Below, piece by piece: positions 4,582-40,331 of a stretch of DNA of 50,925 bases. The notes beneath the pieces are model-generated. The model was not told the DNA's origin and did not search any database. It saw only the letters and a program-made list of their open reading frames with translations. The first letter of the stretch is position 1. Each line of letters opens with the position of its first letter. The translations under genes and the position numbers were made by a program. Source of the stretch: Candidatus Gastranaerophilales bacterium (lineage in GTDB: Bacteria > Cyanobacteriota > Vampirovibrionia > Gastranaerophilales > Gastranaerophilaceae); the NCBI GenBank assembly GCA_944325555.1, contig CALVAN010000014.1:1-50925 (forward strand), given 5' to 3'.

Positions 4582-5049
4582 TTGTACTCATATTCAATTA
4601 ACTGGTTCGCAAAAATAATCACATTCTTTGTTTTTATTGTCTTTTTGATCGTTCCTGCGGGATTGCTCTTTCAGACAATAAGCGAGCAAAATAGGATATT
4701 GCTGGTTTTGGATTTTATTCTCTTGGCTTTTCTTATATATTTGATAAGAACTTTTATTGTGCTTTGGCGTGAAAAATTTAAACGAATAACAGTGGACCAT
4801 GACAATAAATGCTTTTATCTTGTTGATAAGAAAAACATGATGCTAGAAATCCCCTTTGGTGCCGTATCCTGCGTGGAAGTGAGAAGAGGAGAAATAGTCA
4901 GAGGGATAGTTCTCGGGCAGATTAGCCTTCATACTGATAACGGAACTGTTTACAGATTGTCGGTTTCCGGGATTGATACCTTTGTTCACTCGATATCAAA
5001 AGATTTGACGCTTGATTTTAGGGAAAATATATTTTTCTTGCCAAAATAG
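4582..5049 (+). CDS. Membrane protein with two helices and a beta-rich C-terminal domain, unknown
   Basis: The protein begins with a short polar segment, then two transmembrane helices and a soluble C-terminal half of about 100 residues (FKRITVDHDNKCFYLVDKK...) that looks beta-rich, similar in outline to bacterial PH-like domains. The frame could start at a TTG at 4552 inside fabD, but GGGGAG at 4569-4574 stands seven bases before the TTG at 4582, which I prefer (155 residues). It lies between fabD and fabG in the lipid operon. No family recognised with confidence. Confidence 0.6.
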   Translation: MYSYSINWFAKIITFFVFIVFLIVPAGLLFQTISEQNRILLVLDFILLAFLIYLIRTFIVLWREKFKRITVDHDNKCFYLVDKKNMMLEIPFGAVSCVEVRRGEIVRGIVLGQISLHTDNGTVYRLSVSGIDTFVHSISKDLTLDFRENIFFLPK

Positions 5050-5072
5050 TATGTAATAAAATAGGAGAAAAT

Positions 5073-5801
5073 ATGATGGAAAAAAAAGTTGCACTTGTTA
5101 CAGGCGCCTCAAGAGGTATCGGCAAAGCCTGCGCTATAGAACTTGCTAAAGCCGGTTATGACGTTGCCGTAAGCTACGCTGGCAACGAAGAAGCAGCTAA
5201 CAAAACCGTTGCGGAATTAAAAGACCTCGGCGTAAATGCTAAAGCTTACAAGTTTGACGTTTCGGACAAAGAAGCCTGCGCAAAGGCAGTTGAAGAAGTT
5301 CTTGCTGATTTCGGCAAACTTGATGTACTTGTAAACAATGCAGGTATTACACGTGACGGCTTGTTTATGCGAATGAGTGCTGAAAACTGGGAAGCTGTTA
5401 TCAACACAAACCTCAGCAGTGCTTTTTATATGACAAGTCCCGCAATCAAAACAATGATTAAACAAAGAAGCGGCTGTATCATAAATATGTCAAGCATAGT
5501 AGGCGTTATGGGCAACGCAGGTCAGGCAAACTATTCAGCTGCAAAAGCCGGTCTTATCGGCTTTACAAAATCGCTTGCCAAAGAACTCGGTTCACGCAAC
5601 ATCAGGGTTAACGCAATAGCTCCCGGCTTTATCCAAACAGATATGACAAAGGATTTGGATACGGAAAAAATTGCTGAACACATTCCTTTAAAACGTCTTG
5701 GTCAGCCGGAAGATATAGCAAAGGCAGTAAGATTTCTTGCTGAAGATGCACCTTACATAACAGGTCAGGTTCTCGGTGTTGACGGCGGTCTGGTTGTATA
5801 G
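5073..5801 (+). CDS. fabG: 3-oxoacyl-ACP reductase FabG
   Basis: NADPH-dependent reduction of 3-ketoacyl-ACP in fatty acid synthesis. 242 residues. A short-chain dehydrogenase with TGASRGIGKA nucleotide-binding loop, NNAG, the catalytic Ser of NMSSIVG and the Tyr-x3-Lys pair in YSAAKAG. It ends in the typical GQVLGVDGGLVV. There are two adjacent ATG codons. AGGAGA at 5063-5068 is four bases from the first and seven from the second (5076), so the true start may be 5076. It is the last gene of the operon. The acpP and fabF genes that normally follow are absent here. Confidence 0.95.
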   Translation: MMEKKVALVTGASRGIGKACAIELAKAGYDVAVSYAGNEEAANKTVAELKDLGVNAKAYKFDVSDKEACAKAVEEVLADFGKLDVLVNNAGITRDGLFMRMSAENWEAVINTNLSSAFYMTSPAIKTMIKQRSGCIINMSSIVGVMGNAGQANYSAAKAGLIGFTKSLAKELGSRNIRVNAIAPGFIQTDMTKDLDTEKIAEHIPLKRLGQPEDIAKAVRFLAEDAPYITGQVLGVDGGLVV

Positions 5802-5822
5802 TTTCATATGAACATTTAAGCT

Positions 5823-5856
5823 AAAAAAGACTCCATAATTTTTGGGGTCTTTTTTT
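5823..5856. terminator. Bidirectional terminator between fabG and the polyene cluster
   Basis: AAAAAAGACTCC and GGGGTCTTTTTTT pair, with one G-T wobble, around a nine-base loop. A-runs and T-runs on both sides make it work for fabG on the plus strand and for the ketosynthase gene ending at 5867 on the minus strand. Confidence 0.85.
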
Positions 5857-5866
5857 ATAAATAATT

Positions 5867-7093
5867 TTAATCAATCTTTTTAAAAATCAAAGAGGTGTTG
5901 ATTCCGCCAAAGGCAAAGTTATTTGACATTACAATATTCGTACCGATTTCTCGTCCTTCTTTCATAATGTAATCAAGCTTCGCACAATCATCGTCAACAT
6001 TTTCAAGATTTAGTGTCGGACAGAACCAGCCTTTGTTCATCATTTCAATTGATAAAATAGCTTCTATTGCTCCGCAGGCACCTAAAGTGTGCCCTGTGTA
6101 ACTTTTTATTGAACTGATAGGTACTTTTCTGTTAAATACTTCATAAGTCGCAATACTTTCAGCAATATCTCCGTTGTGTGTTGCTGTGCCGTGGGCGTTT
6201 ATATAACCTATTTCCTCGGGGGAAATTTGTGCATCTTTAAGCGCTCTTTTTAGTGCACTGCCCATTGTTTCGTGGTTCGGATTTGTTATGTGCGTTCCGT
6301 CCGTTGTTGTTCCGAAACCTATAACCTCTGCGTAAATTTTTGCGCCTCGTTTTTTTGCGTGCTCATATTCTTCAAGAATCAGCGTGCCTGCACCTTCTCC
6401 TATAACCAAACCGTCACGGTCTTTGTCAAACGGTCGGGGGGTAAGTTCGGGGGAAGCATTTTGCTGGCTTGTTGCATATAATGTGTCAAAAACTGCAATT
6501 TGCGAGGGGTGTAGTTCTTCTGCTCCGCCCGCTATCATAACTGTTTCGTATCCGTTTTTTATTGTTTCATACGCAAAACCGATTCCCATTGAGCCTGAAG
6601 TGCAGGCAGTTGAGGACGGAATAAGCCTGCCTTTGGTTTTAAAATAAAGAGAGATGTTTACACTCGTTGTCTGGGGCATCATTTTTATGTAAGAGCCGGA
6701 GTTTATACCTTTGACCTTTTTTTCTGCTTCCATTGTGTAAAAATCAATGATAGACTCTAAAGACCCTGATGAAGATCCGTAACTTACTCCTGTGTTTTCC
6801 GAAGCAATAATTTCATTCCCGAGAAGCCCTGCATCTTCTAAGGCCTGTTCTGTTACAACAGTGCTCATAAGTGCAACACGCCCCATTGTTCTTGTTACTT
6901 TTCTGTTGAAATGCTCCGGAATGACAAATCCCTGTACTCTTGAACAAAGTTTTGCGTTAAGGTGCTGGTATATTTCATATGCCGGCTCATATTCAATGCA
7001 GTTGTGCAGATGCATAAGCCTTGAATAAGCCCCTTTAAGACTGCAACCAAGCGGGCTTGCCAGTGCCATACCCGTAACAACAACTCTTTTCAC
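5867..7093 (-). CDS. Beta-ketoacyl-ACP synthase of the aryl-polyene type (ApeR-like)
   Basis: 408 residues, an elongating ketosynthase of the FabF family. The active site is intact: Cys164 in STACTSGS, His301 in NAHGTATHNGD and His335 in SYTGHTLGA, plus the C-terminal NNFAFGG loop. In studied aryl-polyene clusters a homodimeric ketosynthase of this kind extends the polyene alongside an ApeO/ApeC pair. It overlaps the ketoreductase gene by four bases, and the two are translationally coupled. As no fabF lies after fabG, a role in ordinary fatty acid synthesis cannot be ruled out from sequence alone, but its position in this cluster favours the polyene role. Confidence 0.85.
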   Translation of the reverse strand: MKRVVVTGMALASPLGCSLKGAYSRLMHLHNCIEYEPAYEIYQHLNAKLCSRVQGFVIPEHFNRKVTRTMGRVALMSTVVTEQALEDAGLLGNEIIASENTGVSYGSSSGSLESIIDFYTMEAEKKVKGINSGSYIKMMPQTTSVNISLYFKTKGRLIPSSTACTSGSMGIGFAYETIKNGYETVMIAGGAEELHPSQIAVFDTLYATSQQNASPELTPRPFDKDRDGLVIGEGAGTLILEEYEHAKKRGAKIYAEVIGFGTTTDGTHITNPNHETMGSALKRALKDAQISPEEIGYINAHGTATHNGDIAESIATYEVFNRKVPISSIKSYTGHTLGACGAIEAILSIEMMNKGWFCPTLNLENVDDDCAKLDYIMKEGREIGTNIVMSNNFAFGGINTSLIFKKID

Positions 7094-7818
7094 GAGTAAA
7101 GTCCCCCGTTAACTGATATAACCTGCCCCGTTATGTAAGAAGCATCTTCGCTCATAAGATAGTTGATAAGACTTGCAACCTCTTTGCAGGTACCCATACG
7201 CCTCATGGGTATAAGCTTTTTAACTTCATCTTGCGGCAGGTCTTTTGTCATGTCGGATTCTATAACCCCCGGTGCAACACAGTTTACGGTAATACCTCGT
7301 TTTGCAAGCTCAAGGCTGAGCGCTTTTGTTGCTCCTATAATGCCGGCTTTAGATGCACTGTAGTTTACCTGACCTCTGTTTCCTCTAAGACCTGAGATAG
7401 ATGAAAGAGTAACAATGCGACCTTTTATCTTTTTTTCAATCATCGGCATGATTACCGGTTTTAAGACATTATAAAAACTGCCGAGGTTTGTGCCGATAAC
7501 ATCGTCCCACTCTGTTTCTGTCATAATCGGAAACACGTTATCTCTTGCAATACCGGCATTCAGTACTACTCCAAAATATACACCGTTTTGGTCAATATCA
7601 TTTTTTATTGTTTCAAAACATTTTTTACGGTCTTTTACGTCAAATTGAAGAATCCTTGCATTTTGTCCGAGGTCTTGAATCTGTGTTTGAAGTTCCTGTG
7701 CTTTTTCAATGTTGTTGCGGCAATGCAGTACAATATCATATCCGTTTTCGGCAAGGTATAGTGCTATTGCTTTGCCGATGCCTCTGGATGAGCCTGTTAC
7801 AAGTATTTCTTTACCCAT
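7090..7818 (-). CDS. 3-ketoacyl-ACP reductase of the polyene cluster (ApeQ-like)
   Basis: 242 residues, short-chain dehydrogenase. It has TGSSRGIGKA, NAGIARD, Ser in LSSISGLRG and the Tyr/Lys pair in YSASKAG, and ends with GQVISVNGGLYS. It is clearly a FabG paralogue of the housekeeping copy at 5073 but distinct in sequence. In an aryl-polyene pathway it would reduce each 3-keto intermediate before dehydration. The gene lies between two ketosynthase genes on the same strand, with a 16-base gap upstream and a four-base overlap downstream. Confidence 0.88.
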   Translation of the reverse strand: MGKEILVTGSSRGIGKAIALYLAENGYDIVLHCRNNIEKAQELQTQIQDLGQNARILQFDVKDRKKCFETIKNDIDQNGVYFGVVLNAGIARDNVFPIMTETEWDDVIGTNLGSFYNVLKPVIMPMIEKKIKGRIVTLSSISGLRGNRGQVNYSASKAGIIGATKALSLELAKRGITVNCVAPGVIESDMTKDLPQDEVKKLIPMRRMGTCKEVASLINYLMSEDASYITGQVISVNGGLYS

Positions 7819-7834
7819 TTATTTCTCCCGTAGT

Positions 7835-9448
7835 CTAAAGTTCAATTTTGGAATTGTTGAAATCTTCGGGCTGATATGCGTTAACCACCGCTTTAGCACA
7901 TTCTATACCATTATTATAGATAAAACACTCAAACGAAACAAGTTCGTTATCGCCAAACACTTCTCGTGCAATAACTTCATAGGTTTTTCCGTTTTCAAAT
8001 TTTTCTATAGAGCAATTGTAAGAACGGCTGCCCAGAAGAAAACCTACTTTGGGTTCACCATCCGCCCGTCTGAAATACGAATAACACCCTATTGTCTGAG
8101 CCATGAACTCTATGCCCGCAAGCGGAGAAACACCATTGATTGTTTCATCAAAAAACACTTTATTTTTGTCTATTTTAACAATTGATTTTACAAATTTTTC
8201 TTCAAAATTTACCTCTAAAATTCCGTCTATTAGTATCATTGGCTTGTCGTGAGGCAAAATATTCGATAAGTCGTTTATGGAGTATAACAGCTTGTTTTTT
8301 GGCTCTTCGTGCTTTCCAAAGATAATTACTGCGTTAGAACCGCCGAAACCAAAAGCGTTGCACATAACATAGCGATTGTTTTTTGCTTTTTCTCCTTTTT
8401 GGGCTAATTTTATTTTTGCAATAGAAGGATCGTAATCACCGTCAAAGTTGTGAGGAATCAGATATTTTTCGGAATTTATTTCGTCATCAAGAAATGCAAG
8501 ACACAATGCGCTTTCTACTCCAGATGAAGCCCCGAGACAATGACCTGTTAAAGATTTTGTAGAGCTTGCGGGTGTTTTGTCTTTAAAAATTTTATAGACC
8601 GCATTTGCTTCCATTAAGTCGTTTGTGATTGTACCTGTGCCATGAAGGTTTATGTAATCTATGTCTTCGGGTTCAAGACCAGCCTCTTGCAGTGCAAGTT
8701 TCATAGCTTTTGCCGCTTGAATGCCTTCCGGGTCAGGTGTTGCGCTGTGGTATGCATCTGAGGTTTCTCCGATACCGAGGATTTTTATGCCTTTGTTTAC
8801 ATCTTTTTCAAGTATAAAAAGCGCTGCACCTTCTCCAATATTAATTCCGTCCCTGTTTTTAGAAAACGGTCTGCACTTTGAGGCAGACATAACTTCAAGC
8901 GCACTGAATCCGAAAACAGGTGTCTTTGACAGTGAGTCTGCCGCTGCGCAAAGTACAGCATCGCAAATTCCGTTATCCAAAAGCTTTACACCTGTAGAAA
9001 ATGCTTTAATCCCCGAAGTACAGGCTGTGGAAACACCGGTACAATAATTTTTTAAACCGAGATGTTCTTTTAAAAATATTGCGGGGGAACCTATTTGAGA
9101 ATGAAATACATCTCCGCTCTGTTCATATTCGTTTACACCTGCATTTGTTGTGCCGACAACTACAGCTATTCTGTCTTTGCCATATTTTTCAATAAGTGTA
9201 TCAATGTCTTTTTTGATTCCATTAACACAGTGCAATAGCAGCGTATTGGTTCTTGTGTTGAATTTTGGGTTGCTGATTTGGGGTAAAGTTTTTTTTACAA
9301 TTCCGAAATACAAATTTGTCCCCTTAACAATACTGTCATCAGGTACAAAAAAATCCGCATCGGGCGAAAGCGAGTTTTCAAAAATTTCTTTAACTTCCGA
9401 ACCGAGGTCACAAATTGCGCTGTATGATGTGATAGAAATATTTGCCAT
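7835..9448 (-). CDS. Ketosynthase-dehydratase fusion (ApeO-like + ApeP-like)
   Basis: 537 residues. Residues 1-380 are a ketosynthase with Cys143 (STACTSG), His269 (NLHGTGT), His303 (SLTGHCLGA) and the NAFGFGGSN loop. After a short linker, residues from about 390 form a hot-dog-fold dehydratase of the ApeP type: ILPHDKPMILIDG with His400 and GIEFMAQ with Glu447. In the well-studied clusters these are two separate genes, apeO and apeP. Here the frame runs through without a stop and both active sites are present, so I read it as a real fusion rather than an error. It is divergent from the ApeC-like gene at 9467, its expected partner. Confidence 0.88.
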   Translation of the reverse strand: MANISITSYSAICDLGSEVKEIFENSLSPDADFFVPDDSIVKGTNLYFGIVKKTLPQISNPKFNTRTNTLLLHCVNGIKKDIDTLIEKYGKDRIAVVVGTTNAGVNEYEQSGDVFHSQIGSPAIFLKEHLGLKNYCTGVSTACTSGIKAFSTGVKLLDNGICDAVLCAAADSLSKTPVFGFSALEVMSASKCRPFSKNRDGINIGEGAALFILEKDVNKGIKILGIGETSDAYHSATPDPEGIQAAKAMKLALQEAGLEPEDIDYINLHGTGTITNDLMEANAVYKIFKDKTPASSTKSLTGHCLGASSGVESALCLAFLDDEINSEKYLIPHNFDGDYDPSIAKIKLAQKGEKAKNNRYVMCNAFGFGGSNAVIIFGKHEEPKNKLLYSINDLSNILPHDKPMILIDGILEVNFEEKFVKSIVKIDKNKVFFDETINGVSPLAGIEFMAQTIGCYSYFRRADGEPKVGFLLGSRSYNCSIEKFENGKTYEVIAREVFGDNELVSFECFIYNNGIECAKAVVNAYQPEDFNNSKIEL

Positions 9449-32219: not shown

Positions 32220-32633
32220 ATGAAATTTGCTACCGAGTATTTGTGGTTTAATACCCAAAATCACAGAGAATACATAAACATCACGGACGAAGTTGAAGAA
32301 ATTGTGAAAAAAAGCGGGATAAAAGAGGGTATGGTGCTTGTTTCCGCAATGCACATAACAGCAGGTGTGTACGTTAATGATGCGGAAAACGGTCTTATTG
32401 CAGATATCGACAAATGGCTGGAAGAGCTTGCTCCGTTTGATATAAACTATAACCACCACAGAACAGGGGAAACAAACGGTGACAGCCATTTAAAAAGTCT
32501 TTTAATCGGGCATGAAGTAATTGTTCCGATTACGGACGGCAGGCTTGATTTTGGGCCGTGGCAGCAGATTTATTATGCTGAATTTGACGGTCAAAGAAGA
32601 AAACGTGTTATTGTAAAAGTAATGGGAGAATAA
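32220..32633 (+). CDS. YjbQ/UPF0047 family protein
   Basis: 137 residues, the usual length. The conserved histidines are present: [35 protein letters not shown], then the family end with [19 protein letters not shown]. Members have been linked to weak thiamine-phosphate synthase activity, but the physiological role is unsettled. AGGAG before the ATG. It is followed after two bases by the secreted vWA gene, so they may share an mRNA. Confidence 0.9.
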
Positions 32634-32635
32634 TT

Positions 32636-33586
32636 TTGAACACAAAAGACTGCTTAAAAAAAGTTGTAATATCTCTTATGCTTATGTCAGGATTTGCTCT
32701 TGCTGCTACAGCAGCAAAGTACAAAGTCAACACTCACGGTAAAGTCACAAGCCCGGCCGGTACAACTCAAAACAGCAGTGTATTAAATAATTCCTCTGAT
32801 TTTTACAATAATTACTCTTCCCAAAGCTATGTAAACACACAGCAGGTGCTCAAATCGTATGTTCCCACAATAGATATAGTAATGGATTACTCGGGCAGTA
32901 TGTCGTACTGGATTGCGGAAGCCAAAAGATCAATGTCTGCAATTATATCTCAGCTCCCAGCGGGAACTGCTGTCGGTTTCAGGGTGTTCGGGCATAGCAG
33001 CAACGGTTTCAACAAGTATTCGCCGATTATGGCAAAAGTTACAAGTATAACTAAAAAAGGTAATGGCGGGTACAAAATTAATGCCTCTACGCCTGATTAT
33101 CTCGGTAATATATCAGGAAGCTGTCAGGCAACCCGACAGCTTGTAAAAGTTGCGGTTAATGATTCTTCCGCTTTGTTAAACGGTATGAATTCTGTTAACA
33201 TAGGAGGATCTACGCCTTTGACTCTTGCTTTAAAACAGGCCGTTGATGACGACTTTGCAGGCATGGGGACAAGTTCTCCCAAGAAAATTATATTAATAAC
33301 CGACGGTGGTGAAAATTGCGGCGGGGATCCGTGTGCATATGCAAAAAGTCTGGTGAAACAGAGAAGAGATATAACAGTAGATGTTGTTCTTGTGTCTTCA
33401 TACTCCAATGAATTAAAATGCCTTGCAGATACAACAGGCGGAAGATTATACACCCCGAGTGATTTAAGCAGTTTTACAACATCAATTTATAATTCAATGA
33501 CAAATACAAACAATACAACTCTGCCGCAGCCTCAGCAAACGCAGCAGGAACCCGAACAGCAATATGAATATGTGCCGCATAATTAA
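32636..33586 (+). CDS. Secreted von Willebrand A (vWA) domain protein
   Basis: 316 residues from a TTG start preceded by GGGAGA. Signal peptide (about 1-27). The vWA domain covers about residues 78-290, with the metal site D84-x-S86-x-S88 (VMDYSGSMS), Thr in GGSTPLTLAL and Asp in ITDGGENCGGD. The tail after the domain is short and Gln/Pro-rich (TLPQPQQTQQEPEQQ). The gene converges on the TonB/vWA operon with overlapping stops at 33583-33586. It is probably a periplasmic or surface partner of that operon. Confidence 0.8.
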   Translation: MNTKDCLKKVVISLMLMSGFALAATAAKYKVNTHGKVTSPAGTTQNSSVLNNSSDFYNNYSSQSYVNTQQVLKSYVPTIDIVMDYSGSMSYWIAEAKRSMSAIISQLPAGTAVGFRVFGHSSNGFNKYSPIMAKVTSITKKGNGGYKINASTPDYLGNISGSCQATRQLVKVAVNDSSALLNGMNSVNIGGSTPLTLALKQAVDDDFAGMGTSSPKKIILITDGGENCGGDPCAYAKSLVKQRRDITVDVVLVSSYSNELKCLADTTGGRLYTPSDLSSFTTSIYNSMTNTNNTTLPQPQQTQQEPEQQYEYVPHN

Positions 33587-34641
33587 TTTAAATCAACTTC
33601 AAAGTTACCGCCATACATAGTAACAGACAGTTTAAGCGTTTCATTCTTGTAACCTGACGGCGGCGGGTTGTATGCAGGAGTTTGCATTACTGCGTTGTAC
33701 ACGGCATCATTCAGGCTGTCATTTGTCGATTGTTTGCTAAAGGCTCTGTTTGTGAGTTTCCCTGATTGAGAAATTTTGAAGGTAATAGCACAGGAGCCGT
33801 CGCCTACAACTGCTGCAAAGTTTATATTAGAAGCAATTTTGTTTCTTAATGCTATTTTATAATTTAAAAGCTCTCTTTTTTGTGCTGCGGCATTAACTTT
33901 AGGACTGATTGTACTCATTGTTGTTTTTTTAGAGCCTTTTGACGTTGTTTTGGACGCAGATGTCTGCGTGGTTGGCGCCTTTTGGGGCTGCTGCTTTTTA
34001 ACTGTCGTTGCAGCCGGTTTGGAAACAGTTTTTGTAGTTTTTGTCGTAGTTTTTGTTGAAACCTTTTTTGCAGCCGGTGTTGTTTTTGCCGGCGTATAGG
34101 TTTTTACGGGTTGTGTTGAAACAGATGTCTTTGCCGGCTGTTGTGCAGGTTTAAACAGATCGCTTATTGTCTTTTGAATATTATTTTGTACGGTCTGTGT
34201 TTGTGAAGGCTGCTGTTGAGCCGGTTCTTCTTTTTGTACAGATACGGGCGCTGCGGCTTTTTTAGGATTTTCAATCCACAATTCATCTATCGAAGGAATG
34301 TTTTGAGCTGCTTTTTTGTTTTCAGCCTGCTGTTGTTTTTCTTTTTGAGTTTGGGCATTCTTTTGTTTGTCTGAATCAGAAGACGGATTACCTACAAAAA
34401 ACAAAATAACAAAGGACAGAATTAAGCAAACGACAAGAAATGCAACGGACGGTAAATCAAACCTGCGGTTCTGGTTGCTATATTGGCTATATGTTGGCGT
34501 GTGGTTATATTGATTTTGTACGGTATATGGTTGCTGATTTTCTTCTTGTTCAATAACGTCAAAGGAGTCATTGCCGCAGTCGCAGTATTCCTGCAATTCA
34601 TCATATAACTGGCCGCATTCCGTACATTTGTACTTATACAT
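33583..34641 (-). CDS. TonB-like protein with N-terminal zinc ribbon
   Basis: 352 residues. Residues 6-22 are a small zinc ribbon (Cys6, Cys9, Cys20, Cys22), followed by a Gln/Asn-rich stretch, one transmembrane helix at about 64-84, a long low-complexity Lys/Thr/Pro/Gln linker (KTTTKTTKTV, QQPQKAP), and a C-terminal domain from about 250 that resembles TonB/TolA C-terminal domains (FKISQSGKLTNRAFSKQS, then TPAYNPPPSGYKN). The layout is that of an envelope-spanning force transducer with an unusual cytosolic zinc ribbon. Last gene of the five-gene operon. Confidence 0.7.
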   Translation of the reverse strand: MYKYKCTECGQLYDELQEYCDCGNDSFDVIEQEENQQPYTVQNQYNHTPTYSQYSNQNRRFDLPSVAFLVVCLILSFVILFFVGNPSSDSDKQKNAQTQKEKQQQAENKKAAQNIPSIDELWIENPKKAAAPVSVQKEEPAQQQPSQTQTVQNNIQKTISDLFKPAQQPAKTSVSTQPVKTYTPAKTTPAAKKVSTKTTTKTTKTVSKPAATTVKKQQPQKAPTTQTSASKTTSKGSKKTTMSTISPKVNAAAQKRELLNYKIALRNKIASNINFAAVVGDGSCAITFKISQSGKLTNRAFSKQSTNDSLNDAVYNAVMQTPAYNPPPSGYKNETLKLSVTMYGGNFEVDLN

Positions 34642-34643
34642 TG

Positions 34644-35489
34644 TTAATTCCTTATTCTTTCTACGTCTTTATAGTCTGCAGGTGTACTGTAAGTTGTTTT
34701 ATCCGAAATTTTCCAAGCACCGGAAACCGTTGTTGTTACACGGTTAGATCCGGCGGGAAAATTCATAAAATCACGTCCCTGATAGCTTCTTATAACCGGT
34801 GCAATATACTGTATTGCATAAGGGGTGTAATTCGGATCATCGGAGCTTGTGCTGACATTTGTTATTTTTCCGAACTTGTCAACATCAAATGAAAATCTAA
34901 ACACTGTACCCTGTTTAACAATAGGCAGCTTTACATCGGTCATAATTCTGTTTTGCAGGTCAGAACGCCATTTGTTCCACTTGATTAATTCTTCCTGCTC
35001 TTTTTGAGCGGCAGTTTTAACCGGTTTTGTCACAGCAGGTTTTGTAACAGGTTGAGATTTTGGCTGCTGTTGTGTTTTTTGTATCGGCTTTGCTGTCGAT
35101 TTTGACGGCTGAGGGGTGCTTTTTTGTTGCTGTTTTGGCTGTGCGGTAACGGTTTTTACTGCCTTTTGCGGCTGAACTTTAACAGGCTGCTGCACAACAT
35201 TGACCTTTGTTTTTTCAACATTAACCGGCTTTTGTACCACATTGACAGCTTTATCAACAATTGTATCTTTAACAGCAACAATTGATTTTTGTGGAGTCGT
35301 CTGCTGTTGTACTGTATTTATTTTTGTCGGAACAACCTCTGTTTTTACATTATCGTTTTGCTGTAAAACAACGTTTAGCCCTGAATCAAACAAGAAAATG
35401 TTTTTATGCATTTTAGGGCTGATTATCGCCATAAAGACAGTCGAAACAAGAAGTAAAATTGTTAATATCGTAAAAAATATTTTATACAA
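34644..35489 (-). CDS. TonB-like protein with Pro/Gln/Lys linker
   Basis: 281 residues. One N-terminal membrane helix (about 5-25), a linker of roughly 140 residues made of Val/Lys/Pro/Gln repeats (VVQKPVNVEKTKVNVVQ), and a C-terminal domain with FRFSFDVDKFGKITNVST and MNFPAGSNRVTTTVSG, similar in pattern to TonB/TolA ends. It sits two bases from the zinc-ribbon TonB-like gene; the two look like a diverged pair. Confidence 0.68.
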   Translation of the reverse strand: MYKIFFTILTILLLVSTVFMAIISPKMHKNIFLFDSGLNVVLQQNDNVKTEVVPTKINTVQQQTTPQKSIVAVKDTIVDKAVNVVQKPVNVEKTKVNVVQQPVKVQPQKAVKTVTAQPKQQQKSTPQPSKSTAKPIQKTQQQPKSQPVTKPAVTKPVKTAAQKEQEELIKWNKWRSDLQNRIMTDVKLPIVKQGTVFRFSFDVDKFGKITNVSTSSDDPNYTPYAIQYIAPVIRSYQGRDFMNFPAGSNRVTTTVSGAWKISDKTTYSTPADYKDVERIRN

Positions 35490-35512
35490 AATAATATCAC
35501 CTATTCTTTGTT

Positions 35513-37105
35513 TTATTTGTCATATTTTGCAAGAATTTCTTCACAGGCATGAGTTTCAAACTTTGTCTGGCTGAGCATAAACGTCTCCGCAATTAAAAGC
35601 GCTGTCGGAACAAGTGCAGCAACGGCGCTTAAAAGAATACCTCCGAGGTCGCCGCCGATTTCCTGCATAAAGTAAGAAATATTCATTGAAAACTCAATAA
35701 ATATGATACATAGTCCGATTATAAAAGAACGCCTCATATCGGTATCGATTTTTTTGACGCCTTGCAGTCCGTAAATTTCCGTACCATGCTGCATATAGTT
35801 GCTGAAACCGTCATTTTTTAATACATTTGAAGCCTGAATTTTTTTGTTTGCCAAAAATCCGTTAACAAAAGCAAAAAATGCAAATATAATCAAAAATGTT
35901 GCCAGCACAAGAAATACGGGACTGAATCTCAAGCCCGAAACTCTTACCCAACCTGCTGCATCAGGAAAACAAGCTGCCAGAGTGTTGGAAACACCGTAAG
36001 CAAGAAAAGGAGCGGTTAAAATTCCGAGAATTATTTCACCTACTGATTTAATTTGCAGGTTAAATAGCCTGTCTTTGATGCTGCCTATTTTGTTTTCGCT
36101 CAAGCTGTTTACAAAACTTTCTATCCAGCTTCTGTAAGCTTGTATTACCTGTTCAAAATCTTCTCGGTACTCGTATTTGTTCAGCTCTTTTGAAAGTTCA
36201 ACACTGTCGCTTTTAAAATATCCGCACGCAAGTGCCAGTATAACGCACATTGCCGTAAAAAACAGCGACATACATATTGCAAAAAACGGCATTGATCCCG
36301 GAGCCATATAATACAATACATTTATCACATAAACACCGGCATAAAACAGTGAAGCCGTAATAATCAGTGTTTTTTCGGAAATATTATTTGCTGCAGCTGC
36401 TCCGTGTTGACGGTTTTGCAAAAGCAAATACATACCCTGTTTCATAACAAGTCCAATACTGTATAAAATAACTGTAAACAAAAGCAGAAACTTCATATTA
36501 ACAGGCATTTGTATTATTGTACCGGCATCTTTTAGCGGAAAACCGCAAAAGTAATTAGATACCCCGAAAGCAAGAACCAACGTAGCAACAAAAAGTCCAA
36601 TGTGAAGAAAAATACCCGCTTTGGAATTCATTGATAATTTGTGTCTGAGGTCATTTATTGAATATGCAATATGCTTTATTATCGCAACACGAACCTTTTC
36701 TATCTCCGCTTTCCTTCTTTCAAGTGCTGTTTTTGCAGATGTATTTATTGGAGATATTGTTTGAAGGTTTGTCTGTTGAATTGTTGTTGTATTTTGTGTG
36801 TCTGCAGGTGTATTTGCAGGGTTAATTTTTATTGTAATAAATTCGTCGGAGCCTTTTATCATAATTTTGCAAAGTTTCTCAACAACAAGTTTTTGAGGCA
36901 GCGGCTGACCTTTAAAAAGGAGTTCGGGGGTGTTAGTTTTGTTTACGACAATGCATTTTTGCGTTTTTTCGTCGTACTGGACAAGCATCAAAAAATTAAC
37001 GCCGACGTTAACCACGCAATCACTGCCGTTTTGAGAAGAAATACTCACCGGATTTTTATCTGTAAAAGTTTGTTCGGAATTTTTTGTTATTATCGAAAAT
37101 GACAT
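35513..37105 (-). CDS. Eight-helix membrane protein with FHA-like head and internal duplication
   Basis: 530 residues. Residues 1-95 form a soluble beta-rich domain resembling a degenerate FHA domain (PVSISSQNGSDCVVNVG, FKGQPLPQKLVVEKLCKI) without the usual GR and SxxH residues. After a linker the rest is two copies of a four-helix unit: GVSN at 181-184 and 371-374, QHG at 233-235 and 439-441, and YYM at 265-267 with YFM at 478-480 in register. I find no known family. It is not an ExbB or TolQ by motif. Centre of the five-gene operon. Confidence 0.65.
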   Translation of the reverse strand: MSFSIITKNSEQTFTDKNPVSISSQNGSDCVVNVGVNFLMLVQYDEKTQKCIVVNKTNTPELLFKGQPLPQKLVVEKLCKIMIKGSDEFITIKINPANTPADTQNTTTIQQTNLQTISPINTSAKTALERRKAEIEKVRVAIIKHIAYSINDLRHKLSMNSKAGIFLHIGLFVATLVLAFGVSNYFCGFPLKDAGTIIQMPVNMKFLLLFTVILYSIGLVMKQGMYLLLQNRQHGAAAANNISEKTLIITASLFYAGVYVINVLYYMAPGSMPFFAICMSLFFTAMCVILALACGYFKSDSVELSKELNKYEYREDFEQVIQAYRSWIESFVNSLSENKIGSIKDRLFNLQIKSVGEIILGILTAPFLAYGVSNTLAACFPDAAGWVRVSGLRFSPVFLVLATFLIIFAFFAFVNGFLANKKIQASNVLKNDGFSNYMQHGTEIYGLQGVKKIDTDMRRSFIIGLCIIFIEFSMNISYFMQEIGGDLGGILLSAVAALVPTALLIAETFMLSQTKFETHACEEILAKYDK

Positions 37106-37114
37106 ATTTTTCTC

Positions 37115-37783
37115 CTATCTTCCGATTGCGTCTAACAGTTTTCTTTGAGAATTAGATACTGTCTGCTCATTTGCAACAATCAGTTTGTTTTCACCCAGTA
37201 TCGGGGTTAATTTTGTTTTTACAAGATCAAGTTTTTGTGGATGTGCATATACAAACATCATAGAGATTTCAGGTATATATTTTTTTATCTTTTTTACATT
37301 CTCTGGTAATGTATCCCAATCAAGCTGTTTAGCCGCATCACCTTCGTTTTCAAGGTCGCCGATAATAACTATTGAAGGAATATATCCCTCTTTTTTCATA
37401 TTTAATGCGTGTTCAAAAGCTTTTTTTATTGCTTCACCGTAAGCAGTACCGTACTCACTGCTGTCCAGTTGTGTGAACTCTTTCAGCGTTTTGTTTATAG
37501 TTGAATTATTCATTGGAGAGCCTTCATATATCAGATAAGAGTCTTGCGAAACCTTTAATATCTTTATGCTGTCTTCTGGGTCAAGTATAGAGCATACAGA
37601 TTTTAAATAATCAATTTCTTCTTCGAGTTTAGCTTGATTTGAAGCAGAAGAATCCACCACAAAAATAACTGCTGCGGGATGAAACTCATCAATTTTAATA
37701 TTGCTTATTCCTATAAACAAAAGTTTGCAGACTATGGAACAAGCAAGTATTAAAATTCCCGTAACTATTAATCTTTTATTCAT
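37115..37783 (-). CDS. Membrane-anchored vWA domain protein
   Basis: 222 residues. One N-terminal membrane helix (about 6-26), then a vWA-like domain with the metal-site start VDSSASNQ (D-x-S-x-S), a central YGTAYGEAIKKAFEH segment in place of the Thr loop, and VIIGDLENEGDAAK as the Asp loop. The order of genes (TrbI-like, vWA, FHA-like membrane protein, two TonB-like) has nine- to 24-base gaps. The anchored vWA could dock the secreted vWA protein or the TonB-like ends. Confidence 0.72.
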   Translation of the reverse strand: MNKRLIVTGILILACSIVCKLLFIGISNIKIDEFHPAAVIFVVDSSASNQAKLEEEIDYLKSVCSILDPEDSIKILKVSQDSYLIYEGSPMNNSTINKTLKEFTQLDSSEYGTAYGEAIKKAFEHALNMKKEGYIPSIVIIGDLENEGDAAKQLDWDTLPENVKKIKKYIPEISMMFVYAHPQKLDLVKTKLTPILGENKLIVANEQTVSNSQRKLLDAIGR

Positions 37784-37799
37784 TAAAATATCCTGTTTT

Positions 37800-38840
37800 T
37801 TAATAGCTTAAAACAACACTGGTCGGTTTATCAAGCACAACTTCAATGTCTGTATAAGCCGGGATTTCAGCATCTATACCTTTTTGTGCAACATTTGTAA
37901 CAAGAGCGCCGCCGCCGCCGATACTTGCGCCTATAATGGCACCTTTTGCTAAATCCGAAGTGTCGCCCGTCATTGCTGCTATTCCCAAACCGAGTAATGC
38001 ACCCAGGGCCGCCATTGCAACCGTAGAACCGAGTACCTGTTTAACTTTACCGTCGTTTGAAACATCAAACTCTACTTTTTCTGTAGATATGTTAATTGTT
38101 TTTCCGTCAGGCGTAAAAATTTTGTTAAATACAATATCGACAGATCCGTTGCGAGATGCCAGTTTTGCGGGACTTGCTTTTGTAATTGTTCCTGTTAAAA
38201 CGCTCCCCTGCGGGGCCACTGTGTATTCTTTGTAGTTCCAGTTTTCTTTTAATACTGCATTAACAGTATCACCCTGAGAAGCGGTTGCGGTATTTATTGC
38301 ATTTTGTAAGTAAACATTGAGCTTTACGCCTTTGTCTATTTTTCCTGCAAAGCCTTTGAGTGTAGTTGGCTGAGCCGGTTTTTGTTGTTTAGCAGCAGAT
38401 GTTGTCTGTTGTTGTTTTGGTTCTTCAAATGAATATACTTTTTTGGTTCCTGTATTGTATCTGTAAACAATATCTGAAAAATTTTGCAGCAGCATCGGAT
38501 CTTCCGATTGTTCATATACTATGTCATTTTTTTTGAAGGCTTTTATTATATTTTTGTTTAGCTTTTTATTTTTGTCATTAGATTCGTAATAATAAAAAAG
38601 ATTTTTTCCGCTTTGCTGTAATACAATTATTGCAAAGTTTGAGGAATTTTTTTGTGATACTGCGTGAATAGGATTTTGATTTTTTATATCAAACTCTTTA
38701 TCTGTCAATACTTCCTTTATTTGAGTGGTAATGGTATTTTTATCAGTATTTTTAAGGTAATATAATTCTTCAAACGCATAGCATACATTTGTCGAAAGAA
38801 AATATAAAACACAGAGAAACAATGCCACAAACTTTTTCAT
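37800..38840 (-). CDS. Secreted TrbI-like protein with glycine-zipper segment
   Basis: 346 residues. Signal peptide (about 1-22, CYAFEE). The middle part (KGVKLNVYLQNAINTATASQ, then GDTVNAVLKENWN and APQGSVLTGTITKA) resembles the TrbI-type beta-domain of conjugation and other envelope proteins. It is followed by a Gly/Ala-rich hydrophobic segment (GALLGLGIAAMTGD, then GAIIGASIGGGGAL) of the glycine-zipper type. A first domain of 130 residues is unknown. First gene of the operon. Its ATG has GGAG about 14 bases upstream. Confidence 0.65.
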   Translation of the reverse strand: MKKFVALFLCVLYFLSTNVCYAFEELYYLKNTDKNTITTQIKEVLTDKEFDIKNQNPIHAVSQKNSSNFAIIVLQQSGKNLFYYYESNDKNKKLNKNIIKAFKKNDIVYEQSEDPMLLQNFSDIVYRYNTGTKKVYSFEEPKQQQTTSAAKQQKPAQPTTLKGFAGKIDKGVKLNVYLQNAINTATASQGDTVNAVLKENWNYKEYTVAPQGSVLTGTITKASPAKLASRNGSVDIVFNKIFTPDGKTINISTEKVEFDVSNDGKVKQVLGSTVAMAALGALLGLGIAAMTGDTSDLAKGAIIGASIGGGGALVTNVAQKGIDAEIPAYTDIEVVLDKPTSVVLSY

Positions 38841-39059: not shown

Positions 39060-39611
39060 ATGAAAGTTACTGCTGTATCTGCGAATTTACAAAATCGCAT
39101 TAATTCTGCTGAAAAAAATCAGCAAGAAAATATCCCTTCTTTTAAAGGGGTATATGTTAAAGGTCTAAAACAACAAGATATTTTGGATTTGTATGAAGAT
39201 GGTCCCGGAATTTGGAGAATGATAAAAAATGTTACTCCTGTTTTAAAAGAAAAGTTTCCGATGTTTCATACCGTTATTCAGGTAGGAAGAGATTATTTCC
39301 GTGATATTCGTGTTTCATTTATCCGTAACAAATCAATGGACCAACAGTTGAAAAACTATATTGTTAATAAAAATACTTCGTCATTTCAACTGCCTGGATA
39401 TATTATTGATTCTTTTAGATACGGAAGCGATGATTTTGCCGGATTTTTAGACGGGAAGAACTATACTCCTATGTTAAGAATGCAATACGGTAAACTTGGA
39501 GAAGAAAATGCAACAAATCGTTTTATGCAATTTATTCGCTCAAATAATCAGGACTCGGTTATAAGATATATGTATGAAAATGAAGGGTCTGCCATAGCAA
39601 ATAATATATAA
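39060..39611 (+). CDS. Unknown protein with N-terminal F-K-G motif (1 of 2)
   Basis: 183 residues. N-terminal MKVTAVSANLQNRINSAEK followed by PSFKG near residues 27-31. It has no signal peptide and no membrane helix. The body is mixed helix and strand with no recognised domain. The same N-terminal pattern occurs in the next gene. I know this style from Gastranaerophilales proteins, but no function for it. AAGGGA precedes the ATG. Confidence 0.65.
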   Translation: MKVTAVSANLQNRINSAEKNQQENIPSFKGVYVKGLKQQDILDLYEDGPGIWRMIKNVTPVLKEKFPMFHTVIQVGRDYFRDIRVSFIRNKSMDQQLKNYIVNKNTSSFQLPGYIIDSFRYGSDDFAGFLDGKNYTPMLRMQYGKLGEENATNRFMQFIRSNNQDSVIRYMYENEGSAIANNI

Positions 39612-39632: not shown

Positions 39633-40331
39633 ATGAAGGTAAATGCAATTCACAACAATTTATATACTGCAAAAAATTCACAAAAAGTAAAAAAGAATCC
39701 GGCTTTTGCGGCAAGAGTTCAATACTATGCTGTGCTTAAAGATGTTATCTCTGATGAAGTTATTGATATAACCAAAGGACCTTTAAAAAACTTGATGGAT
39801 AGGATTATACCTTATCTGGAAAGACTTGATGATAACAACCTTATTGTTACAATTAGCGGTGCACAAAAAAAACCGAGTTTTATGGATATTTTTAAAAGCC
39901 AGCCTGATCAAGGGCTTAAGTTTGATTTGAATTATTTTGATGCAAAAAAATTCTATAATAAATTTATGGCAGACAGGGAATTATCAAAGTTTTTAGATCC
40001 TGAAGTTCTAAAAGGATTAAGAAGAAAAGACGATGCTTTGATGAATACGCTAACGGAAACTGTCGGTGTTGGAAAGTTGTATCGTCCTGATAAGGGAGAA
40101 ACACCGGAACAATATATTGCGGAAGTAATTCCCAAGATAAGAGAACACTTACGTATTATGCCTAAACTTATTACGGAAAGAAAAGATATAAAATTTAATC
40201 CTCAGCTTAATAAATTTATAGAAGATCCGAGTGCGCTTGATCCCACAAAACGCAAACCTTGGAACTTGTATAGAGGTATTGAGTTTGATTATCCTGAAAT
40301 AGGCTTTAGTGATATAAAACAGGTTGTTTAA
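39633..40331 (+). CDS. Unknown protein with N-terminal F-A-A motif (2 of 2)
   Basis: 232 residues. MKVNAIHNNLYTAKNSQKVK and then NPAFAARVQYY give the same opening layout as the upstream gene (MKV-x-A, then Pro-x-Phe). No signal peptide, no membrane helix, no recognised domain; the body is largely helical and charged. It is 21 bases after its partner and is closed by a strong terminator. The shared head and different bodies suggest that the first 30 residues are a targeting or interaction tag. Confidence 0.65.
   Translation: MKVNAIHNNLYTAKNSQKVKKNPAFAARVQYYAVLKDVISDEVIDITKGPLKNLMDRIIPYLERLDDNNLIVTISGAQKKPSFMDIFKSQPDQGLKFDLNYFDAKKFYNKFMADRELSKFLDPEVLKGLRRKDDALMNTLTETVGVGKLYRPDKGETPEQYIAEVIPKIREHLRIMPKLITERKDIKFNPQLNKFIEDPSALDPTKRKPWNLYRGIEFDYPEIGFSDIKQVV

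Follow-up and report, generated by a model that had tools for sequence, protein, structure and literature searches.

The TonB-ExbB-ExbD and TolA-TolQ-TolR systems share a trans-envelope design in which proteins with a single transmembrane (TM) helix, Pro/Lys-rich linkers and a TonB_C domain are encoded alongside several inner-membrane helices; to our knowledge, all force systems of the TonB, Tol or Mot type run on one stator family, MotA/ExbB/TolQ. Here we describe a five-gene operon (33583-38840, minus strand) in a 50,925-nt stretch of DNA, referred to below as the window, which is contig C14 of a Candidatus Gastranaerophilales genome (G000; 2.32 Mb, 60 contigs, estimated completeness 99.95%). 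The host lineage, Gastranaerophilales (Vampirovibrionia), comprises non-photosynthetic gut relatives of cyanobacteria. The operon encodes a secreted TrbI-like protein, a membrane-anchored vWA protein (vWAmem), an eight-helix protein with an FHA head (FHA8TM) and two TonB-like proteins (TonB1 and the zinc-ribbon protein TonB2), and a gene for a secreted vWA protein (vWAsec) converges on it. Although it has the TonB/Tol features listed above, the operon has no MotA_ExbB or ExbD homologue, its TonB-like proteins lack the SxxxH motif, the genome is without a TonB-dependent receptor, and an FHA-headed eight-helix protein and a periplasmic vWA protein are found instead. Since neither the coupling motif nor an ExbB/ExbD partner was found on testing, we do not count it as a member of TonB/Tol. 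Our leading, still tentative, reading is that the five genes encode one trans-envelope complex of TonB/Tol general design in which FHA8TM and vWAmem replace ExbB/ExbD.

Other described systems resemble single parts of the operon. VirB10/TrbI/TraF proteins of type IV secretion share with the operon's first product a C-terminal TrbI-like domain, an inserted hydrophobic hairpin and a final 'IP.tdiev.Ld' strand region; unlike them, the operon protein is secreted, with a signal peptide, and has no N-terminal TM helix or Pro-rich arm in its chain, these features sitting in TonB1 and TonB2 instead. It is also the sole type IV secretion-type part in the operon and falls short of the Pfam cut-off. FHA domains are common in the inner-membrane parts of secretion systems, and SctD/YscD, EssC/EccC and CT664 likewise carry a degenerate FHA domain on the cytosolic side of a membrane protein; in contrast to these, FHA8TM has an eight-TM domain of no known family and no secretion ATPase. 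The Bacteroides aerotolerance (Bat) operons also encode membrane-anchored vWA proteins with membrane partners, but the partners here are TonB-like, FHA and TrbI-like, there are no tetratricopeptide-repeat Bat proteins in the operon, and Pfam and NCBIfam scans of the operon proteins found neither MoxR ATPase nor DUF58; it is not a Bat operon. The Anabaena proteins SjdR, TonB2 and TonB4 are TonB-like proteins of the cyanobacterial lineage with roles beyond TonB-dependent uptake, but no vWA/FHA8TM operon was found in their description (PMC8597729). The initial annotation of the window did not know the gene set from any described system, and we too found no description of it in the literature searched.

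Linkage and inheritance of the gene set

The gene set holds together in relatives. We compared 42 loci from 30 genomes, in which vWAmem lies directly upstream of FHA8TM at 40 and a TonB-like gene directly downstream at 40; independent scattering of the genes, a prospect raised at the outset, was not seen, the vWAmem-FHA8TM-TonB triplet being complete and in constant order at 38/42 loci while the flanking genes vary among genomes. A second set of 80 loci from named genomes, mostly Candidatus Gastranaerophilales metagenome-assembled genomes from animal guts and some of them the same species as in the first set, has the full TrbI-vWAmem-FHA8TM-TonB-TonB arrangement at 58 loci and linked vWAsec at 33 to 41. 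Co-loss is seen as well: across 58 relatives, vWAmem and FHA8TM are present in the identical 30, TonB2 is present in 28 of these 30 and in 0 of the 28 others, and three genomes of the same genus that are 95-99% complete (G009, G021, G022) lack all three genes. The module is inherited and lost as a unit.

A tree splits the loci into types A, B and C, the last of them small, with only four label changes. Type A, to which the window belongs, has TrbI and TonB2 and often vWAsec, while type B consists of the core only. Type C has TrbI, FHA8TM, two TonB genes and vWAsec without vWAmem (3/57 tree loci, 9/80 named-genome loci); at three such loci (L056, L063, L195) between one and four vWAsec genes run divergently from TrbI, which suggests that vWAsec is able to stand in for vWAmem. 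A second vWAmem-FHA8TM-TonB core is present in the same genome on contig C41 (L005:4214-7410), with 56%, 50% and 24% identity, respectively, to the window copy. Its TonB-like protein has an Asn/Gln-rich linker in place of a Lys/Pro-rich one, and NADH-dehydrogenase-like genes lie alongside. More broadly, the FHA8TM profile matched 138/289 genomes in a class sample and 128/386 in a phylum sample, and among the matches listed all fall in the family of the host; in genus g31 several consist of a stand-alone FHA-like open reading frame (ORF) only. A further match is in a 66%-complete genome (G051) assigned to another family of the same order. Plasmid-borne spread was considered and set aside, FHA8TM having no match in PLSDB.

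The membrane protein, the vWA proteins and the TonB-like pair

FHA8TM was modelled with AlphaFold2 from 81 sequences (mean pLDDT 83, pTM 0.59), and the model has an FHA beta-sandwich at the N-terminus, followed by a long cytosolic helix and then eight TM helices. Judged on this model, the FHA-like head of the initial annotation can firmly be assigned to the FHA fold (Foldseek prob 1.00; VIA Z 12.9, root-mean-square deviation (rmsd) 2.2 over 93 residues against Rv1747 FHA-1), and CT664 of Chlamydia is among its fold matches. The canonical phosphothreonine-binding Arg/Ser are not conserved: the residue after Gly is S/N/T/A in 35/35 sequences, Arg occurs in 1/35 at each of the two positions that follow, and no SRxH-like motif is found in any of the 35. 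With these residues missing, a scaffold role is likelier for the domain than phospho-sensing. A stand-alone 99-residue FHA-like protein homologous to this head (L179-L184) occurs in one genus of the family, in which the rest of the module is missing from most members examined; since such a version exists, the FHA-like domain is a separable module.

In the membrane domain, E357, E471, N475, S477, P500, T501, E507 and T508 are identical in 35/35 sequences, both paralogues included, and its conservation far exceeds that of the linkers and the TonB-like proteins. The proposed duplication within this domain is a moderately supported 4+4-helix repeat, as a log-odds profile alignment finds it (z=3.2; 0/200 local shuffles equally good) but plain hhalign finds no significant internal duplication. 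Searches of Pfam, NCBIfam, PADLOC and a PDB sequence profile placed FHA8TM in no known transporter, PDB or defence family. Modelled alone (pLDDT 79), the membrane domain gave a best Foldseek match at E 0.05 (TMq 0.23) and a best VIA match at Z 7.7 with an rmsd of 35, followed by ATP-binding cassette exporters at Z about 7 over 123 residues; the exporter scores lie within the noise stated for the tool, so there is no clear fold match of any kind, and we do not claim the fold as new. A tetraspanin match (E=0.004 in the protein of the window; 6/35 homologues) was rejected as far under the cut-off and is ascribed to helix composition. Pfam scans of 35 FHA8TM homologues gave no match to MotA_ExbB, and a genome search with PF01618 found three loci only, none of them FHA8TM.

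Both vWA domains score above the Pfam cut-off, in agreement with their first labelling. The metal ion-dependent adhesion site (MIDAS) residues of vWAmem (D44, S46, S48, T113, D143) are each kept in 30-31 of 31 sequences, and flanking charges suggest an N-in orientation of its TM helix; in vWAsec the MIDAS (DxSxS...T...D) and four Cys are each kept in 22/22 sequences. With two vWA proteins of intact MIDAS, a cytosolic FHA domain and zinc ribbon, and an FHA-like protein standing alone in one genus, one could picture a signalling or adhesion-sensing complex in which vWAmem and vWAsec bind an extracellular ligand and signal to partners in the cytosol by way of FHA8TM, with the TonB-like proteins as periplasmic tethers. 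We regard this as quite unlikely, as the FHA domain is missing its canonical phosphothreonine residues and the 42 loci hold no constant extra neighbour fit to be a regulator (kinase families not specifically searched).

TonB2 exceeds the cut-off of Pfam TonB_2 (E=7e-6, 26.5 bits against 22), 21/23 homologues match the same family, and its description as a zinc-ribbon TonB-like protein stands; the CxxC...CxC ribbon, whose four Cys are invariant, is found in 25/26 members, the exception being an unrelated-looking neighbour in L068, and a search of PDB with the profile came no closer to TonB than E=0.01. TonB1 shares the layout of TM helix, low-complexity linker and C-terminal domain and has a C-terminus related to that of TonB2 at profile level (prob 96% full length; trimmed, P=1.6e-4 and prob 50%), but no Pfam match of its own; one of its 36 homologues matches TonB_2, at 8e-9, and its family profile found no significant structure among PDB sequences. 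TonB and TolA couple to ExbB and TolQ through the SxxxH (SHLS) motif of the TM helix. This motif is essential for ExbB coupling (PMC8928145). It is found in 0/40 TonB1 and 0/26 TonB2 proteins, whereas the same scan finds it in 16/20 of the ExbBD-linked TonB3 proteins, at least some of the rest being cut at the motif by the scan. This bears on the possibility that TonB1 and TonB2 are extra TonBs of an accessory system, energised in trans by the genome's single ExbB/ExbD and modulated by the vWA and FHA8TM proteins. The genuine TonB_C domain of TonB2, the one TonB-ExbB-ExbD-ExbD cluster in the genome and the occurrence in some bacteria of several TonBs beyond their receptors (PMC8597729) are in its favour; given that the coupling motif is seen in 0/66 and the genome has no TonB-dependent receptor, we nonetheless hold it to be improbable.

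TrbI-like/TonB pairing and a possible trans-envelope complex

That cluster recalls the operon. It lies on contig C18 (L211:1038-6701), encodes a TrbI-like protein, TonB, ExbB, ExbD and ExbD, and contains the genome's only ExbD genes and one ExbB; an Omp85-like gene, so named from sequence alone, adjoins it. The absence of ExbB/ExbD noted in the initial annotation thus holds for the operon, in whose five proteins Pfam finds neither, but not for the genome, whereas that of a TonB receptor extends to the whole assembled genome, which gives no match to the receptor Plug (PF07715; E. coli control positive). Plug is found in only a few relatives. Across the order, a TrbI-like gene lies directly upstream of TonB-ExbB-ExbD-ExbD in 20/20 loci for which the upstream stretch was present (L211, L214-L232), at some of them doubled or preceded by an Omp85-like gene, and its product is homologous to the operon protein (best E 4.5e-36). 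Given this pairing in the lineage, the operon is a second such pairing, with FHA8TM and vWAmem where ExbB/ExbD would be. Elsewhere in the genome, contig C27 has two large nearby genes (L213:783-4118 and 4848-8240), one encoding a protein with a zinc ribbon and an apparent ATPase region, the other an acidic protein of 1130 residues that overlaps a TonB_2 match.

The TrbI-like protein has a signal-peptide-like N-terminus with no second TM helix ahead of the TrbI domain, and its C-terminal end is formed by a glycine-zipper hairpin of two helices and, after it, a 'IPAYTDIEVVLDKP' strand, a layout that by eye matches the antenna and last strand of VirB10. Among its homologues 12/23 match TrbI at E<0.01 (best 1.6e-7); the family profile found no significant structure among PDB sequences. 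A VirB10-like protein with such a hairpin could alternatively form the outer gate of a machine that exports or assembles a surface component, such as vWAsec or a polysaccharide, with FHA8TM as inner-membrane channel. The FHA domain, so frequent in secretion systems, the CT664 fold match, the linkage of vWAsec and the glycan genes nearby in the window would suit this. Against that, the operon has no ATPase, the glycan genes are not retained as neighbours in relatives, many loci have no vWAsec and no transporter fold clearly matches the membrane domain; the idea is in our judgement an unlikely one.

Under the favoured reading of a TonB/Tol-like complex, FHA8TM would be the inner-membrane platform of an assembly reaching from the cytosol to the outer membrane, its FHA domain docking a cytosolic or neighbouring subunit without requiring phosphothreonine. 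With their TM helices, in the presumed membrane orientation, vWAmem, TonB1 and TonB2 would pack against FHA8TM, and in the periplasm vWAmem would present its MIDAS as a metal-dependent binding site. TonB1 and TonB2 may cross the peptidoglycan via their Pro/Lys-rich linkers and bind, through their C-terminal domains, the TrbI-like protein as outer-membrane partner, resembling the VirB10 C-terminus, while vWAsec could be cargo, or else a ligand in the periplasm or at the surface. FHA8TM and vWAmem would fill the position of ExbB/ExbD in the TrbI-like/TonB/ExbB/ExbD cluster of the same genomes. How the complex is energised, what it binds and what it carries we can only infer; that ions drive force through E471 and E507, glutamates invariant in the membrane domain, is speculative, and we give little credence to the bolder proposal that FHA8TM and vWAmem form a new, independently evolved inner-membrane motor outside MotA/ExbB/TolQ, in which the TonB-like proteins are driven, by ion flow past these glutamates, against an outer-membrane ring resembling VirB10. 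The envelope complex with cytosolic sensing first suggested for the operon survives in part: a structure spanning the envelope fits the anatomy and the TrbI-like/TonB pairing, but its FHA head is without the canonical phosphothreonine residues.

Several observations weigh against a TonB/Tol-like complex of all five proteins. The operon's TrbI assignment, E=8e-6 notwithstanding, stays at 26.2 bits, under the Pfam gathering cut-off of 35, and the predicted TonB-like C-terminal fold of TonB1 is weakly supported. Because type C puts TrbI beside FHA8TM without vWAmem, vWAmem is not obligatory at every locus; nor is the outer part, because type B has no adjacent TrbI gene and mostly no TonB2. Furthermore, the ExbBD system kept by the host family could in principle serve TonB1 and TonB2 in trans, and the co-occurrence counts are not independent of phylogeny.

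The locus in its host lineage

The ORFs are in the order first reported, with intergenic gaps of 16, 9, 23 and 2 bases, within the 2-23 bases given then (Table 1). The convergent vWAsec gene does overlap at its stop, sharing 4 bases with the stop of TonB2.

Table 1. Positions in the window of the operon, its domains and the convergent vWAsec gene
Feature	Position	Strand	Basis
TrbI-like secreted protein: signal peptide, then an N-terminal domain and a VirB10/TrbI-like C-terminal domain that holds the glycine-zipper helical hairpin	37800..38840	-	TrbI match 37884-38318
vWAmem: single N-terminal TM helix and periplasmic vWA domain, intact MIDAS	37115..37783	-	Pfam VWA_2, E=2e-7
FHA8TM: N-terminal FHA domain (residues 1-97, 36815-37105), cytosolic helix, eight TM helices (predicted)	35513..37105	-	AlphaFold2 model, Foldseek, VIA, hydropathy profile
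FHA8TM membrane domain, 4+4 helices	35516..36730	-	invariant residues in 35/35 sequences
TonB1: N-terminal TM helix, Pro/Lys/Gln-rich linker, putative TonB-like C-terminal domain; no SxxxH	34644..35489	-	profile comparison, motif scan
TonB2: N-terminal zinc ribbon (CxxC...CxC, 34552-34641), TM helix, linker, TonB_C domain (33628-33861); no SxxxH	33583..34641	-	Pfam TonB_2
vWAsec: secreted vWA protein, intact MIDAS, four invariant Cys; converges on operon	32636..33586	+	Pfam VWA, E=3e-7

Among the neighbours, the putative YjbQ-like gene at 32220..32633 (+) runs in the vWAsec direction in several genomes and is probably a bystander. Two adjoining orphan genes (39060-39611 and 39633-40331), neither with a Pfam match, have similar N-termini (MKVTAVSANLQNR...PSFKG and MKVNAIHNNLY...PAFAA); a search for a recurrent N-terminal motif on neighbouring orphan genes gave a signal too weak for any claim. 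We dropped the glycan genes at 26-31.6 kb as parts of the system, their adjacency to the operon not being kept in relatives. A scan of the locus for promoter and terminator consensus sequences was uninformative, promoter scores lying near the shuffle level.

The module is an envelope feature, so far uncharacterised, that is widespread among the Gastranaerophilales of animal guts, a lineage in which TonB is paired with a TrbI/VirB10-like protein, usually with no TonB-dependent receptor in the genome. As a conserved module in which TonB-like transducers without the stator-coupling motif nearly always have next to them a membrane protein that is unrelated and highly conserved, it would be a good place to seek a second solution for force or signal transfer over two membranes.

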